DNA of 33,789 bases from an uncultured Alphaproteobacteria bacterium (lineage in GTDB: Bacteria; Pseudomonadota; Alphaproteobacteria; RF32; CAG-239): assembly GCA_944391725.1 (NCBI GenBank), contig CALXUQ010000016.1:1-33789 (forward strand), written 5' to 3'. Each line of letters opens with the position of its first letter. Position 1 is the stretch's first letter. This document shows, in pieces, positions 7,836 to 13,242 of this stretch. The notes beneath the pieces are model-generated. The model saw only the letters and a program-made list of their open reading frames with translations, did not search any database and was not told the DNA's origin. Both the position numbers and the translations under genes were made by a program.

Positions 7836-7926
7836 TTCTTTTCCTTGTTGTTATTAAATCTAACCAAATTTTAACGGATATTATCATAATATTTAGACAT
7901 TGCAATAGGGTTTGAAACGAAAGACA

Positions 7927-9036
7927 ATGGATTTAATCAAAAAAATAAGAGTTATGGGCCTCATGAGCGGCACCTCACTTGACGGAGTAGACGTTGCCGC
8001 CATTACTACCGACGGGGTTGATATCTATGACTATGGACGCGCTTATACCGTTCCTTATGACGATTCGCTAAGAGAAGATATCAGAAGCATTTTAGGTCAA
8101 AAGCCCGACACCCCCGAGCAACAAGCAAAAATTGCCGCGGTAGAAGATGAACTGACCCGCTTTCATGCCGAGGTTGTCAATGAATATTTGCATAATTATG
8201 ACGACAGCGTGGAGCTGATAGGTTTTCATGGACATACCATACACCACGAGCCTCAAAATCATTATACTCACCAAATCGGTAATTGCCAACTTTTGGCCGA
8301 TTTAACCGGCAAAAAGGTGGTCGGAGCTTTTCGCAAGGCCGATGTCTTGGCCGGCGGGCAGGGCGCTCCATTGGTGCCGGTATTTCATGTGGCTTTGAGT
8401 GCTGAAATGGAAAAGCCCTTGGCTATCTTAAACATTGGCGGTGTTGCCAACATTACCTGGATTGGTCGCAATGGCGAGGTTTTGGCTTTTGATACCGGCC
8501 CCGGCAATGCTCCGGTCAACGATTGGGTCTTAAAGCATAGCGGTCAGCATATGGATTATAATGGAAAATTAGCCATCTCGGGGCAGATTAACGGTAAAGT
8601 TTTGGCCTCATTGATGCGGCATAAATATTTTGCCAAATATCCGCCCAAATCAATTGATAGAAACATTTTTCACGAAAAATTGGAACATTTGGAAGGACTG
8701 AGCTTGGAAGACGGCGCCGCCACTGCCACGGCATTTTGTGCCGAAGGAGTGGCATATTCTTGCGCCATGTACTTACCCGAAATGCCCAAGGTAATGATTG
8801 TTTGCGGAGGTGGAGCCAATAACCCGACCATCATGCGCTTTCTGCGCCAAAGACTTCCGCAAGTTGAGATAAAAACTGCCCGCGATGTCGGTTGGAACAG
8901 CGATGCTTTGGAGGCAGAAGCCTTTGCCTTTTTGGCCGCCCGCCGATTATATGGGCTTCCCGCCACCTATCCCTCTACTACCGGTGTTCCCGAACCGATT
9001 ATTTGTGGTGAGATATACACTCCGCAAGCACAATAA
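7927..9036 (+). CDS. anmK: Anhydro-N-acetylmuramic acid kinase
   Basis: 369 aa from ATG 7927; a TTG at 7912 would add five residues. AnmK phosphorylates and opens 1,6-anhydro-MurNAc during peptidoglycan recycling, giving MurNAc-6-phosphate. Family signatures are clear: GLMSGTSLDGVDVA at the N-terminus, GFHGHTIHH, NIGGVANIT, and FDTGPGNAPVNDW with the expected catalytic Asp region. The length matches the family (about 370). It is transcribed alone, divergent from tyrS, and ends at a bidirectional terminator. No MurQ etherase gene is adjacent, so the next step must be encoded elsewhere. Confidence 0.96.
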   Translation: MDLIKKIRVMGLMSGTSLDGVDVAAITTDGVDIYDYGRAYTVPYDDSLREDIRSILGQKPDTPEQQAKIAAVEDELTRFHAEVVNEYLHNYDDSVELIGFHGHTIHHEPQNHYTHQIGNCQLLADLTGKKVVGAFRKADVLAGGQGAPLVPVFHVALSAEMEKPLAILNIGGVANITWIGRNGEVLAFDTGPGNAPVNDWVLKHSGQHMDYNGKLAISGQINGKVLASLMRHKYFAKYPPKSIDRNIFHEKLEHLEGLSLEDGAATATAFCAEGVAYSCAMYLPEMPKVMIVCGGGANNPTIMRFLRQRLPQVEIKTARDVGWNSDALEAEAFAFLAARRLYGLPATYPSTTGVPEPIICGEIYTPQAQ

Positions 9037-9078: not shown

Positions 9079-9351
9079 TCATTTTCGAAAGGTTGCTAAA
9101 ATACAAGCAATACCGCCGCCCAGGCAGGCCAGCGTAATCACCCAGTTGGTATCTGGCGATTGAAAATTCCCCCAAGCAATTCCGATAAGAATTAAGCCGG
9201 CTGCAATCATCACCAAGCGGCTAAAAATCTTAATTACCCCGAGCAAAATTCCAAGCACCGCGCCTATCAACACAATTAAGGCTACAATTCCGGCGGTTTG
9301 GGCGTCCATGTAGTTTAACAAAAACTCTTCTAGTCGTTCCAAAATTTCCAT
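9079..9351 (-). CDS. Small hydrophobic membrane protein, unrecognised
   Basis: 90 residues. After an amphipathic N-terminus (MEILERLEEFLLNY) come two to three predicted membrane helices: about 19-41 (Gly/Ile/Leu-rich), about 45-60 and about 68-86, with a short loop (NFQSPDTNW). No family recognised. It is supported as a gene by continuous hydrophobic coding sequence, a start positioned right after the AT-rich upstream region, and a shared bidirectional terminator at its 3' end. No good Shine-Dalgarno precedes the ATG (TTGGGTT only). Confidence 0.65.
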   Translation of the reverse strand: MEILERLEEFLLNYMDAQTAGIVALIVLIGAVLGILLGVIKIFSRLVMIAAGLILIGIAWGNFQSPDTNWVITLACLGGGIACILATFRK

Positions 9352-9446
9352 AACCCAATAATTAATATGTTAATTACTAAAAAAATATTCTTTTGTGTCA
9401 GTACAATAGCCCGCAATTTTCAAAAGTCAAATCAAAAAAATAAAAC

Positions 9447-9475
9447 TTGACAATCAGTCCTTGCAGATATACGTT
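9447..9475 (+). promoter_or_regulatory. Candidate sigma-70 promoter for the 9482-9928 RNA
   Basis: TTGACA at 9447-9452, 17-nt spacer, TACGTT at 9470-9475. Two more TTGAC(A/T) boxes lie downstream (9525-9530 and 9557-9562), so the true start could be nearer 9590. No protein-coding gene follows on this strand until ileS, and a strong terminator intervenes. Confidence 0.5.
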
Positions 9476-9481
9476 AAGCCA

Positions 9482-9928
9482 GCTTTGAATTAGTCTATGA
9501 ATAATTATGCAAACGCGACCAAACTTGACTTTTTTAAATTTCAATAATTTAAGTTATTGACAAGCCGCGATAGTCATTAAAAAAAGAAAAGTTTGGCTCA
9601 TCGCCGTTTCTTTGGGCAAGCGTGCTAAAGCAAACGGATGGTTTTATCTGAAGTTCGGCATATGTACAAACCAGTAGCGACAAGCGAAAATTTGTGACGG
9701 AACCTGGGGAATAGCTTTTGTTTGAAAAAGTGACATTTCCGCCGTTAATATGCTGTTATGTAAAGGCGTGCTACATGACGAAACTTCCATGGTGAGTAAT
9801 GAAGAAGCGTGCCGCAAGAGTGTGCCATATCTTAATCTTGCTGCAAGAACCATGGGTCCTTTTACCTAAATTTTGCTTTGATAAGACAAAAAGCCTCTCT
9901 CCTCTAACGAGGATAGAGGCTTTTTCTT
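9482..9928 (+). ncRNA. Candidate structured non-coding RNA (about 340-450 nt)
   Basis: This non-coding stretch has a promoter-like element at its left end and a strong intrinsic terminator at its right end, with no convincing ORF between. Hairpins visible by eye: CCGTTTCTTT (9604-9613) pairs with AAAGCAAACGG (9627-9637, one bulge); GTTATGTA (9755-9762) pairs with TACATGAC (9772-9779, one G-U); and CCATGGT near 9788 can pair with ACCATGG near 9850. The motif GCGTGC recurs three times (9620, 9766, 9807): in or at the edge of the first two hairpin loops and inside the third enclosed region. I could not match it to tmRNA, 6S, SRP or RNase P RNA. The class is unknown and the 5' end uncertain. Confidence 0.45.
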
Positions 9929-9930
9929 TC
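9888..9930. terminator. Strong intrinsic terminator in the tyrS/anmK-ileS intergenic region
   Basis: Stem AAAAGCCTCT / AGAGGCTTTT with an inner CCTC / GAGG pairing and a TAAC loop, followed by TTTTTCTTTC. It has A-runs before and T-runs after, so it can work both ways; on the plus strand it most simply ends the candidate RNA, since no plus-strand gene lies between it and the anmK terminator. Confidence 0.88.
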
Positions 9931-9950
9931 GCAAATTAGAATATCAGCCC

Positions 9951-9979
9951 TTGACTCCGGTGGATTCTTGTATTAACTT
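9951..9979 (+). promoter_or_regulatory. ileS: Candidate ileS promoter
   Basis: TTGACT at 9951-9956, 17-nt spacer, TAACTT at 9974-9979, just after the terminator and about 170 nt before the ileS start. This implies a long 5' leader. Confidence 0.45.
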
Positions 9980-10008
9980 AGCACCAAGTTGAGTTAATTT
10001 ATCTTTAG

Positions 10009-10081
10009 ATACGCAAATGCAACACTCGTTTATACATCACATTCCTCTGATTATTATCCCCTAAGGGGATTCTTTGCGTAT
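10009..10081 (+). promoter_or_regulatory. Structured element in the ileS leader
   Basis: A 9-bp perfect pairing (ATACGCAAA at 10009-10017 with TTTGCGTAT at 10073-10081) encloses about 55 nt that contain a second hairpin, TCCCC-TAA-GGGGA (10057-10069). It sits between the candidate promoter and the ileS start codon. No T-box specifier or other known riboswitch signature was recognised. Confidence 0.4.
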
Positions 10082-10152
10082 ATCAAAAACATTTCTTTTT
10101 TTTAATCTGATTAATCATTTTAACCTTATAACATCTGTGGGTAATATCAAAG

Positions 10153-13100
10153 ATGAGCAAATACTATAAAGAAGTCAAAGCCAAAGCCGACTTTGTCGAG
10201 CTTGAAAAAGAAGTTCTCAAATTTTGGGAAGAAGATAAAACCTTTGAAAAATCGGTCACCCAACGTAGCGGCGCCGAAGAATTTGTTTTTTATGATGGGC
10301 CTCCGTTTGCCAACGGCACTCCGCACTATGGACATATAATGGTGTCTTATGTCAAAGACGTGGTCGCTCGTTTCCAGACCATGTTGGGTAAAAAGGTAGA
10401 ACGCCGCTTGGGTTGGGACTGCCACGGACTTCCGGCCGAGATGTCGGCTGAAAAACAGTTGGGAGTGTCCGGCCGCAAGCAAATTGAAGAATATGGGGTT
10501 GAAAAGTTTAATAACTTCTGCCGCCAAGATGTTTTGAAATATTCCAATATCTGGGTTGATATGTTCAAACGCATCGGCCGCTGGGTAGATTTCAATAATG
10601 ATTATAAAACCATGAACCTTTCGTTTATGGAAAGCGTCATTTCCAACTTCAAACAACTCTATGATAAAGGCTTGGTATATGAGGACTATCGGGTTTTACC
10701 CTATTCTTGGGCGGCCGAAACTCCGTTGTCAAACTTTGAAGTCAATCAGGGTTACCAAGATAAAACCGATAACGCCATTACCGTGATGTTCAAGCTCGAA
10801 AACGGCATGAATATTTTGGTCTGGACCACCACCCCTTGGACTTTGCCCTCAAATCTGATGTTGGCAGTGGGGTTAGATATTGACTATGCGATAATGGAAG
10901 AAGACGGCCAGAAATATATTTTGGCCGAGGCCTTGTTGGGTCGCTATAAAAAGCAGCTCGAAAAAGCCGTTAAGGTTGGTAGCATAAAAGGTCGTGACTT
11001 GGTCGGACTGAGCTATGAGCCGATGTTCCCTTATTTCAAACATCTCAAAGATAAGGGTGCGTTCAAGGTTTTGAGCGGCGAGTTTGTTTCAACCGAAGAC
11101 GGTACCGGCGTGGTGCATATCGCCCCTGGCTTTGGTCAAGACGACTTTGATGCTTGCCGTGCTTATGATGAGAATTTTCCGGTAGTTTGTCCGGTTGATG
11201 AGGCCGGTAAGTTTACTGCCGAAGTTCCCGACTATCAGGGTAAACAAGTTTTTGAAACCAACGAACCGATAATGCAGTGGCTCAAAGAAAAAGGCCTCTT
11301 GGTCAAAAAAGAGCAATACACTCACTCTTATCCGTTCTGTTGGCGTACGGACACCCCGCTGATTTATAAAGCCATGTCCAGCTGGTTTGTTAAGGTTACG
11401 GATTTCAGAGATGACATGGTCAAAAACAATCAACAGATAAATTGGGTGCCCGAGCACATTAAAGACGGCCGTTTTGGTAAATGGCTGGAAGGTGCGCGCG
11501 ATTGGTCCATTTCTCGTAATCGTTTTTGGGGTACGCCGATTCCGGTATGGAAATCTGACAACCCGCAATATCCGCGGATAGATGTTTTTGGCTCACTTGC
11601 CGAGATTAAAGAAAAAACCGGCATTGAGGTAAAGGATTTGCACAAACCCTACATTGATGAAGTGGTCTATCCCAACCCCGATGACCCCACCGGCAAGAGC
11701 ATGATGCGCCGTGTTGGCGATGTGTTTGACTGCTGGTTTGAAAGTGGTTCCATGCCTTATGCTCAGGTGCACTATCCCTTTGAGAATAAGGAGTGGTTTG
11801 AGAGCCACTTCCCGGCCGACTTCATTGTCGAGGCCATGGACCAGACCCGTGGTTGGTTCTATACCTTGACGGTGTTGTCAACCGCTTTGCACAATCGTCC
11901 GGCCTTCAAAAACTGCATTTGTACCGGCTTGCTGATGGCCGAAGGCGGACAAAAGCTTTCTAAACGCCTCAAAAACTATCCAGACCCGAATGAAGTTTTA
12001 GATAGTATCGGCTCCGATGCTCTGCGTTGGTTTTTGGTTTCTTCTCCGGTCTTAAAAGGTGGTAACTTAGCCGTCGATAAAGAAGGTAAAGAAATTGCCA
12101 AGGCTTCCCGCGTGGCTCAAATCCCGCTTTGGAATGCATATTACTTCTTTACTCTTTATGCCAATGCCGAGGGCTATCAGGCTAAAGAAATCAGCCAATC
12201 ATCTGAGGCCATTGATAATTATATTCTCTCCAAACTCAAACGCTTGAGCTTGGTGGTTAAAGAGGGAATTTCGAGCTATGATGTTTCCATGGCCACCAAT
12301 GAATTGGCCGCATTTGTTGAGGTGCTCAACAACTGGTACATCCGCCGCACTCGTGACCGTTTCTGGGAGGGCGATGTCAAAGCTTTTGACACTTTGTATA
12401 CCGTGTTGGTCAATGTCTGCAAAATCATTGCTCCGCTGATGCCGTTCTTGAGCGAATATATCTACAAGAACCTCACCGGATTAGAGTCTGTTCATTTGGC
12501 CGACTATCCGAGCTTGAGCGATATCAAACTTGACGAGGCTTTGGTTCAAGAGATGGATTTTGTGCAAGAGCTCTGCTCTGCCGGTAAGTTTATCCGCGAG
12601 GAGAAAAACCTCCGCAACCGTTTGCCTTTGGGTAGTTTGACCTTGATTGGTGAGCACTTAAGTCCGGCTTATCAAGAAATTGTTAAAGACGAGCTCAATG
12701 TTAAAGAAGTTCGCTTTGATGATTGCTTGGAGAACTATGCTAGCAAGACTATTTACCTTTACACTCCGTTGTTGGGTAAGGCTTTAGGTAAAAACATGGG
12801 ACCGGTCATGGGCGCCTATAAACAAGGTCAGTGGACCTTAAATGCCGATGGTACATTAAGTATCGCAGGACAAACCTTAACGCCGGATTTGTTTGAAGTC
12901 CGTCTGGAGATGAAACCAGGTGTTGCTGGCTTAGCTTTTGCTGATAATAAGGCGGTGGTAACCTTAGATACTAATGTCACCGACGAGCTCCGCCGTGAAG
13001 GTATGGCCCGCGACTTTGTTCGTTTGGTTCAAACCTTGCGCAAAGACAAAGACTTCAACATTTCTGACCGCATTGATCTGTGTTATCAAACCGACAATGC

Positions 13101-13242
13101 CGAATTGTCTTTGGCTCTAAGCGAAAACCAAAACTACATTGCCGAACAGGTTTTGGCGGTTAAGGTTGAAAATAGCTGCAATAGCGGCACCAAAGGAGAT
13201 ATTGAAGGAATTTCTATTTACTTTGATGCAAAAGTAGCGTAA
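10153..13242 (+). CDS. ileS: Isoleucyl-tRNA synthetase, type 2 (eukaryote-like)
   Basis: 1029 aa. It charges tRNA-Ile with isoleucine and edits mischarged valine. The HIGH motif reads HYGH (GPPFANGTPHYGH, residues about 50-62) and the KMSKS motif reads KLSKR within GQKLSKRLKNYPDP. The GWDCHGLP and DQTRGWFYTL blocks are also class Ia IleRS. The length and the KLSKR / YPDP signature fit the IleRS2 clade shared with eukaryotes and some bacteria, including Rickettsia, rather than the standard IleRS1. Family knowledge links IleRS2 with low sensitivity to mupirocin. No strong Shine-Dalgarno precedes the ATG. A hairpin terminator follows. Confidence 0.96.
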   Translation: MSKYYKEVKAKADFVELEKEVLKFWEEDKTFEKSVTQRSGAEEFVFYDGPPFANGTPHYGHIMVSYVKDVVARFQTMLGKKVERRLGWDCHGLPAEMSAEKQLGVSGRKQIEEYGVEKFNNFCRQDVLKYSNIWVDMFKRIGRWVDFNNDYKTMNLSFMESVISNFKQLYDKGLVYEDYRVLPYSWAAETPLSNFEVNQGYQDKTDNAITVMFKLENGMNILVWTTTPWTLPSNLMLAVGLDIDYAIMEEDGQKYILAEALLGRYKKQLEKAVKVGSIKGRDLVGLSYEPMFPYFKHLKDKGAFKVLSGEFVSTEDGTGVVHIAPGFGQDDFDACRAYDENFPVVCPVDEAGKFTAEVPDYQGKQVFETNEPIMQWLKEKGLLVKKEQYTHSYPFCWRTDTPLIYKAMSSWFVKVTDFRDDMVKNNQQINWVPEHIKDGRFGKWLEGARDWSISRNRFWGTPIPVWKSDNPQYPRIDVFGSLAEIKEKTGIEVKDLHKPYIDEVVYPNPDDPTGKSMMRRVGDVFDCWFESGSMPYAQVHYPFENKEWFESHFPADFIVEAMDQTRGWFYTLTVLSTALHNRPAFKNCICTGLLMAEGGQKLSKRLKNYPDPNEVLDSIGSDALRWFLVSSPVLKGGNLAVDKEGKEIAKASRVAQIPLWNAYYFFTLYANAEGYQAKEISQSSEAIDNYILSKLKRLSLVVKEGISSYDVSMATNELAAFVEVLNNWYIRRTRDRFWEGDVKAFDTLYTVLVNVCKIIAPLMPFLSEYIYKNLTGLESVHLADYPSLSDIKLDEALVQEMDFVQELCSAGKFIREEKNLRNRLPLGSLTLIGEHLSPAYQEIVKDELNVKEVRFDDCLENYASKTIYLYTPLLGKALGKNMGPVMGAYKQGQWTLNADGTLSIAGQTLTPDLFEVRLEMKPGVAGLAFADNKAVVTLDTNVTDELRREGMARDFVRLVQTLRKDKDFNISDRIDLCYQTDNAELSLALSENQNYIAEQVLAVKVENSCNSGTKGDIEGISIYFDAKVA

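Follow-up and report, generated by a model that had tools for sequence, protein, structure and literature searches.

A candidate fast-evolving small RNA gene in the anmK-ileS spacer of an uncultured alphaproteobacterium

What does the long stretch of DNA between anmK and ileS hold, if it holds no protein gene? The DNA analysed here (the window, 33,789 nucleotides in full) comes from the 1.57-Mb genome of an uncultured Alphaproteobacteria bacterium, where it makes up contig C16; in it, anmK is followed by a 90-aa reverse ORF, the candidate RNA and ileS (Table 1). An earlier note, made from the letters of this DNA, had drawn attention to a long gene-free stretch at this place and had proposed a new structured RNA with a promoter-like element, hairpins, a strong terminator and a repeated GCGTGC motif. 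The gene-free stretch itself was borne out, as no credible gene was found in 9352-10152. From the sequence comparisons described here we lean towards reading it as a candidate small RNA gene that stands free in the anmK-ileS spacer, evolves fast and probably acts in trans.

The two ends of the candidate unit are marked by signals. From the promoter at 9447-9475, transcription would be expected to start near 9482, which is where the earlier note had placed the beginning of the RNA, and to stop at 9888-9925. The RNA so produced would measure about 445 nt and consist of a hypervariable hairpin region on the 5′ side, a slower 3′ half and, at its end, a U-tailed terminator hairpin. The only close relative matching across the stretch is G003 (uncultured Alphaproteobacteria bacterium isolate BRZ_CI__bin121, contig CALXTR010000004.1). 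It is the sole homologue with similar sequence, and a scan of the genome contigs with exact patterns returned G003 alone. The ACTTGACAA box is identical in the window and in G003, where the promoter reads TTGACA-N16-TATAAC. The promoter-like element of the earlier note is a TTGACA plus TACGTT pair just upstream of the start, with a counterpart in the relative. The strong terminator was also confirmed at its place. Its stem is retained in G003, and the internal C-T mismatch of the window is a T-A pair there. Terminator-like sites in the region number five, against 1.2 expected. A promoter of its own together with a Rho-independent, U-tailed terminator is the arrangement looked for in Hfq-dependent sRNAs, recognised here at the level of sequence, and Hfq is encoded in the genome of the window (G000; PF17209 match, E 1.1e-26).

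Table 1. Positions of the features discussed. Coordinates are those of the window except where another locus is named; an empty cell means that no value is given.
Feature	Position	Strand	Remarks
anmK	7912-9036		Name from Pfam and NCBIfam
90-aa reverse ORF	9079-9351		After anmK
Predicted sigma-70-like promoter, TTGACA-N17-TACGTT	9447-9475	+	TTGACA 9447-9452, TACGTT 9470-9475
Candidate non-coding transcript, about 445 nt	9482-9925	+	No reading-frame conservation, no Pfam, no Rfam
Hypervariable 5′ segment	9514-9598	+	Long hairpin in window, arms 9519-9539 and 9576-9596 (inverted repeat I1)
Hairpin with GCGTGC copy 1 (9620-9625) at loop	9599-9640	+	z -1.8 in window, -3.4 in G003
3′ half, slowest-changing part, with GCGTGC copies 2 and 3 (9766-9771, 9807-9812)	9698-9887	+	5.3% substitutions to G003
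Predicted intrinsic terminator AAAAAGCCTCTCTCC...GGATAGAGGCTTTTT	9888-9925	+	Strong, U-tailed; inverted repeat
Predicted separate ileS promoter, TTGACT-N17-TAACTT	9951-9979	+	TTGAC-type promoter in family
Predicted ileS leader peptide MQHSFIHHIPLIIIP-stop	10017-10064	+	5′ arm of hairpin 10004-10086 (inverted repeat I8)
ileS	10153-13242		Name from Pfam and NCBIfam
Second-genus stretch, G100	L206 1221-2070		
Second-genus stretch, G071	L207	reverse	
Second-genus stretch, G020	L208	reverse	
Second-genus stretch, G086	L210		
Second-genus stretch, G094	L211		

Could the stretch be a protein gene after all, or an RNA of a known family? The differences between the window and G003 across the candidate RNA include 1-nt indels and have no codon periodicity, which speaks against a protein gene, and the plus-strand frames of 9482-9925 gave no Pfam match. 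A decayed or overlapping protein gene in 9600-9870 (...SNEEACRK.VPYLNLAAR.MG) was considered and rejected on account of its stops, indels, missing codon periodicity and lack of a family match. A mobile origin was rejected as well, since searches of phages, plasmids and viral contigs returned no match. At gathering scores Rfam 15 had no match in the window; a permissive search of the window gave only matches far under the cut-off, none of them convincing, and the units of the sister species described below had no Rfam match either. The large housekeeping RNAs able to fill a gene-free stretch, namely 6S RNA, RNase P RNA and alpha-tmRNA, were discarded as identities because all three were located in other parts of this genome, with scores over the Rfam cut-off. 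The earlier view that this is not a known RNA has therefore withstood the check. In the literature searched we found no small RNA from the anmK-ileS spacer.

If the stretch encodes an RNA, then we can ask: How well does it fold, and how quickly does it change? Taken without the terminator, the window transcript is no better folded than its dinucleotide-shuffled versions (full core, z +0.22; 9596-9885, z +0.82). The value for the G003 RNA treated in the same way is -1.07, and the consensus fold of the window and G003, a comparison of two sequences, contains no pair changed on both sides. The hairpins of the earlier note do exist, both as the inverted repeat 9519-9539/9576-9596 and as the hairpin 9599-9640, and they fare differently in the relative. 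The fold of the inverted repeat (9519-9596) has a z of -3.3 in the window versus +0.47 in G003, where the sequence at 9514-9598 is unrelated (37% substitutions) and folds no better than chance. The stem at 9599-9640 is retained despite 19% substitutions, through a one-base slip and not through clean compensation. As to rates, 9447-9697 differs from G003 by 14-37%, the fourfold sites of ileS by 20.4%, and the other aligned spacers of the window by 1.8-21.7%, with the short nearby ones at about 2.6-8.5%. Measured against these values the 3′ half is slower than fourfold sites without being slower than ordinary spacers in its vicinity; the 5′ half changes faster than such spacers do.

The GCGTGC copies are present where the earlier note had seen them, at 9620, 9766 and 9807 (three in 447 nt); as a signal, they fail the shuffle and conservation tests. 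Had GCGTGC been chosen beforehand, three copies of it would be rare (about 0.0003 of shuffles), but at least one hexamer with four or more G/C attains that number in 5.9% of shuffles, and at least one hexamer of whatever composition in 96%. Across the entire window there are 13 copies against 16 expected. Copy 1 reads GCGAGC in G003, and none of the sister species other than G003 has the motif. Given the hexamer frequencies in shuffles, the altered copy and the absence from the other sisters, the repetition is most likely a coincidence. These results bear directly on the proposal that the copies are binding sites in a CsrB-type sponge, where they would titrate a protein. The comparison came from the earlier note. 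CsrB/RsmZ-type sponges lie in the same length range and have several hairpins, and two of the three copies are indeed in or near loops of predicted folds. However, CsrA (PF02599) is absent from all seven genomes of the genus, in a search whose controls responded, which excludes a CsrA sponge. The 447 nt contain four GGA triplets and two ANGGA, where many such motifs in hairpin loops would be looked for, and GCGTGC is not conserved, its count being accounted for by the word having been picked afterwards. Already refuted for CsrA, a sponge of this type has become hardly credible for the window.

Does the RNA belong to ileS as a leader? In that case it would be a cis-acting riboswitch or attenuator, and 9888-9925 would control read-through into ileS or, in G003, into a lipoprotein ORF. 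The terminator is directed at ileS, about 228 nt downstream. Pairing between the 5′ end GACGGTTTTT and the terminator arm AAAAAGCC would be possible in group B (four sister species, see below), and a U-to-C change in G006 is compatible with it; in the window such pairing is not evident. The gene also has its own signals. TTGAC-N15-19-TANNNT is the regular ileS promoter in the family; in most of the 67 family genomes listed, a TTGAC-type promoter precedes the leader motif by about 95 nt, and the ending motif ATTATCCCYTRRGGGGAT of the leader peptide was found in 67 of the 70 family genomes examined. Compared with G003, 9930-10003 has 5.4% substitutions and the ileS leader region 1.1%. The sequence of the leader (10004-10090) suggests that it is likely an isoleucine-sensing attenuator of ileS; an ileS leader CDS of Caulobacter is mentioned in PMC4117421. 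Because this promoter and leader peptide lie downstream of the terminator, the candidate RNA is not simply an ileS leader. The genes downstream of it vary between species, and neither an Rfam leader family nor a T-box was matched. We therefore hold a cis-acting role to be quite improbable.

Are comparable units present in other species? A covariance model of the window RNA (R1) gave weak matches in 13 other genomes, and those inspected were led by the terminator hairpin. Matches in G006 and G001 drew attention to the spacer before ileS; G004 and G005 were added on inspection. These four species of the genus of the window (group B) have a unit of about 350 nt before ileS, built on the promoter-terminator plan seen in the window, with the promoter ACTTGACT-N16/17-TATAA and a terminator of the same type, AAAAGCCTCTTTCC.... 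Their identity to the G004 copy is 73-81%, and both indels and conserved blocks are seen. Their core has the nested helices TTTCGAACC/GGTTCGAAA, TTTATGC/GCATAAA and GCTGCC/GGCGGT, plus a CGTC/GACG hairpin, and in three of the four it folds better than shuffled sequence (z -4.2, -4.1, -2.5 and -1.4). Seven pairs changed on both sides versus 4.2 in shuffles, the covariation score was reached in 5 of 500 shuffles, and 94.9% of cells are paired, a share that falls to 37-45% on sliding the partners. The covariation is modest, coming as it does from four sequences. In the covariance analysis with relatives that the earlier note had proposed, the window and G003 showed no pair changed on both sides, and this modest signal was seen in group B, whose units may be homologous to the window RNA.

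By BLAST and covariance model the group B unit is limited to four of 152 family genomes. A model of its core (R2) was strong in the four group B genomes only and found nothing credible in the window. No unit of group B type was found elsewhere in the window genome or in G003, and no unit of window type elsewhere in the group B genomes. On the left, the window and G003 have anmK with the 90-aa ORF as neighbours, and group B has different reverse ORFs. Similarity among the versions of the window, group B and the second genus described below is not convincing, as the pairwise alignments fall within or near the shuffled range. The fourfold divergence of ileS between the window and group B is 57-59%, and at such a distance a fast RNA could lose all similarity. 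Position and plan make it plausible that the window and group B units are orthologous, and the units of different species would then be descendants of one gene. In the incomplete genome G002 (61% complete) a protein gene lies directly before ileS instead.

The second genus (g15) is represented by G086, G094, G020, G071, G100 and G034. Its anmK-ileS spacer has a non-coding stretch with TTGACA at its start and a terminator at its end. Hairpins capped by CTYGTGARAG (a GUGA tetraloop) or a close variant number two to six in five of these genomes, and their copy number differs between species. Among the variants are one GAGA cap in G086 and one GCGA cap in G020. The last capped hairpin is the terminator in G086, G094, G020, G071 and G100, and a stretch of about 620 nt in G100 contains five exact matches to GCTYGTGARAGY, compared with three in the rest of its genome. 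Alignment with shuffles gave no significant similarity between the g15 stretch and the window. Group B and the second genus have a CTCTTT(T)CCATA block in common, which is too short to prove homology.

Differing lipoprotein-type ORFs (signal peptide ending in cysteine) were seen between the RNA stretch and ileS in G003 (L006 3547-3996, minus strand), G071 and G100, with a truncated remnant in G020; for genes of this type the anmK-ileS spacer looks like a hot spot.

Is the unit then an RNA gene, or the product of a restless spacer? The promoter and terminator may come from a decayed or exchangeable cassette in a turnover-prone spacer, the remainder having no function as RNA. The main support for this explanation is that the spacer takes up genes, as the lipoprotein-type ORFs or remnant in four genomes indicate. 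The 5′ half, hardly alignable between the two closest species, the chance level of the overall folding and the missing RNA unit in G002 are also in its favour. Against it, G003 retains the promoter and the terminator with its stem intact, four sister species have structured, covarying units at the same place, and the 3′ half changes below the fourfold rate. We consider such a functionless cassette unlikely, though it keeps appreciable weight.

The same three observations argue for a small RNA gene, the sister units being of one plan and the 3′ half differing by 5% where ileS fourfold sites differ by 20%. This reading is further supported by the lack of coding constraint, by Hfq in the genome, by the second genus, in which anmK and ileS likewise enclose a non-coding unit running from promoter to terminator, and by the promoter and leader that ileS has of its own. 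In G003 the lipoprotein-type ORF stands between the terminator and the ileS promoter, which makes the RNA unit separable from ileS. Counting against it, the window RNA folds no better than shuffled sequence outside the terminator, R2 misses the window and the alignments across groups stay within or near the shuffled range. The 3′ half is no better conserved than spacers nearby, the 5′ half changes faster than these, a homologue of similar sequence exists in G003 only, and G002 has a protein gene at the site. The proposal of a new, unclassified non-coding unit is nevertheless supported by the promoter, the terminator, the absence of an Rfam match and the comparable units in four sisters.

If the small RNA gene is real, it would most likely act in trans, as a regulatory RNA whose pairing with other RNAs Hfq would assist. 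The Hfq-associated trans-acting sRNAs of Alphaproteobacteria, such as AbcR1/2 of Sinorhizobium, are alike in being free-standing intergenic genes with their own promoter and a U-tailed intrinsic terminator in genomes with Hfq. They differ from the window RNA in belonging to a shorter class, for which about 445 nt is long, and in having no Rfam relationship to it. A wider proposal is that one orthologous RNA gene occupies the anmK-ileS spacer family-wide and evolves so quickly that nothing but place, promoter and terminator is common to its versions. Four species would have a multi-helix RNA and two the window form, and the second genus would have a conserved 5′ domain and, behind it, arrayed hairpins (up to about six) capped by CU(C/U)GUGA(G/A)AG. 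We regard this proposal as doubtful; if it were true, the capped array of the second genus would suggest a sponge for an RNA-binding protein.

If transcribed, the unit would add a small RNA without a class to an uncultured lineage that has been little studied, and its locus would allow a test of the idea that, within one genus, the position and signals of an RNA gene can persist through the turnover of its sequence. It would also illustrate that such genes may escape notice when Rfam, BLAST and covariance models are the only means of finding them. Without transcription, it would exemplify a cassette of promoter and terminator lying in a spacer that varies.

Two minor observations concern the neighbourhood of these units. 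In G004, two Rfam matches to WsnRNA46, a Wolbachia sRNA, lie close to each other at L097 107-216 and 304-495, well under the gathering score; they precede the group B unit by about 1.0-1.2 kb. In G034 of the second genus, the anmK-ileS spacer has, in place of the hairpins, a tRNA-Ile(GAU)-like gene (L054 1164-1236, corresponding to about 1749-1820 of L209) that scores 54.5 bits in Rfam and is without an encoded CCA end.
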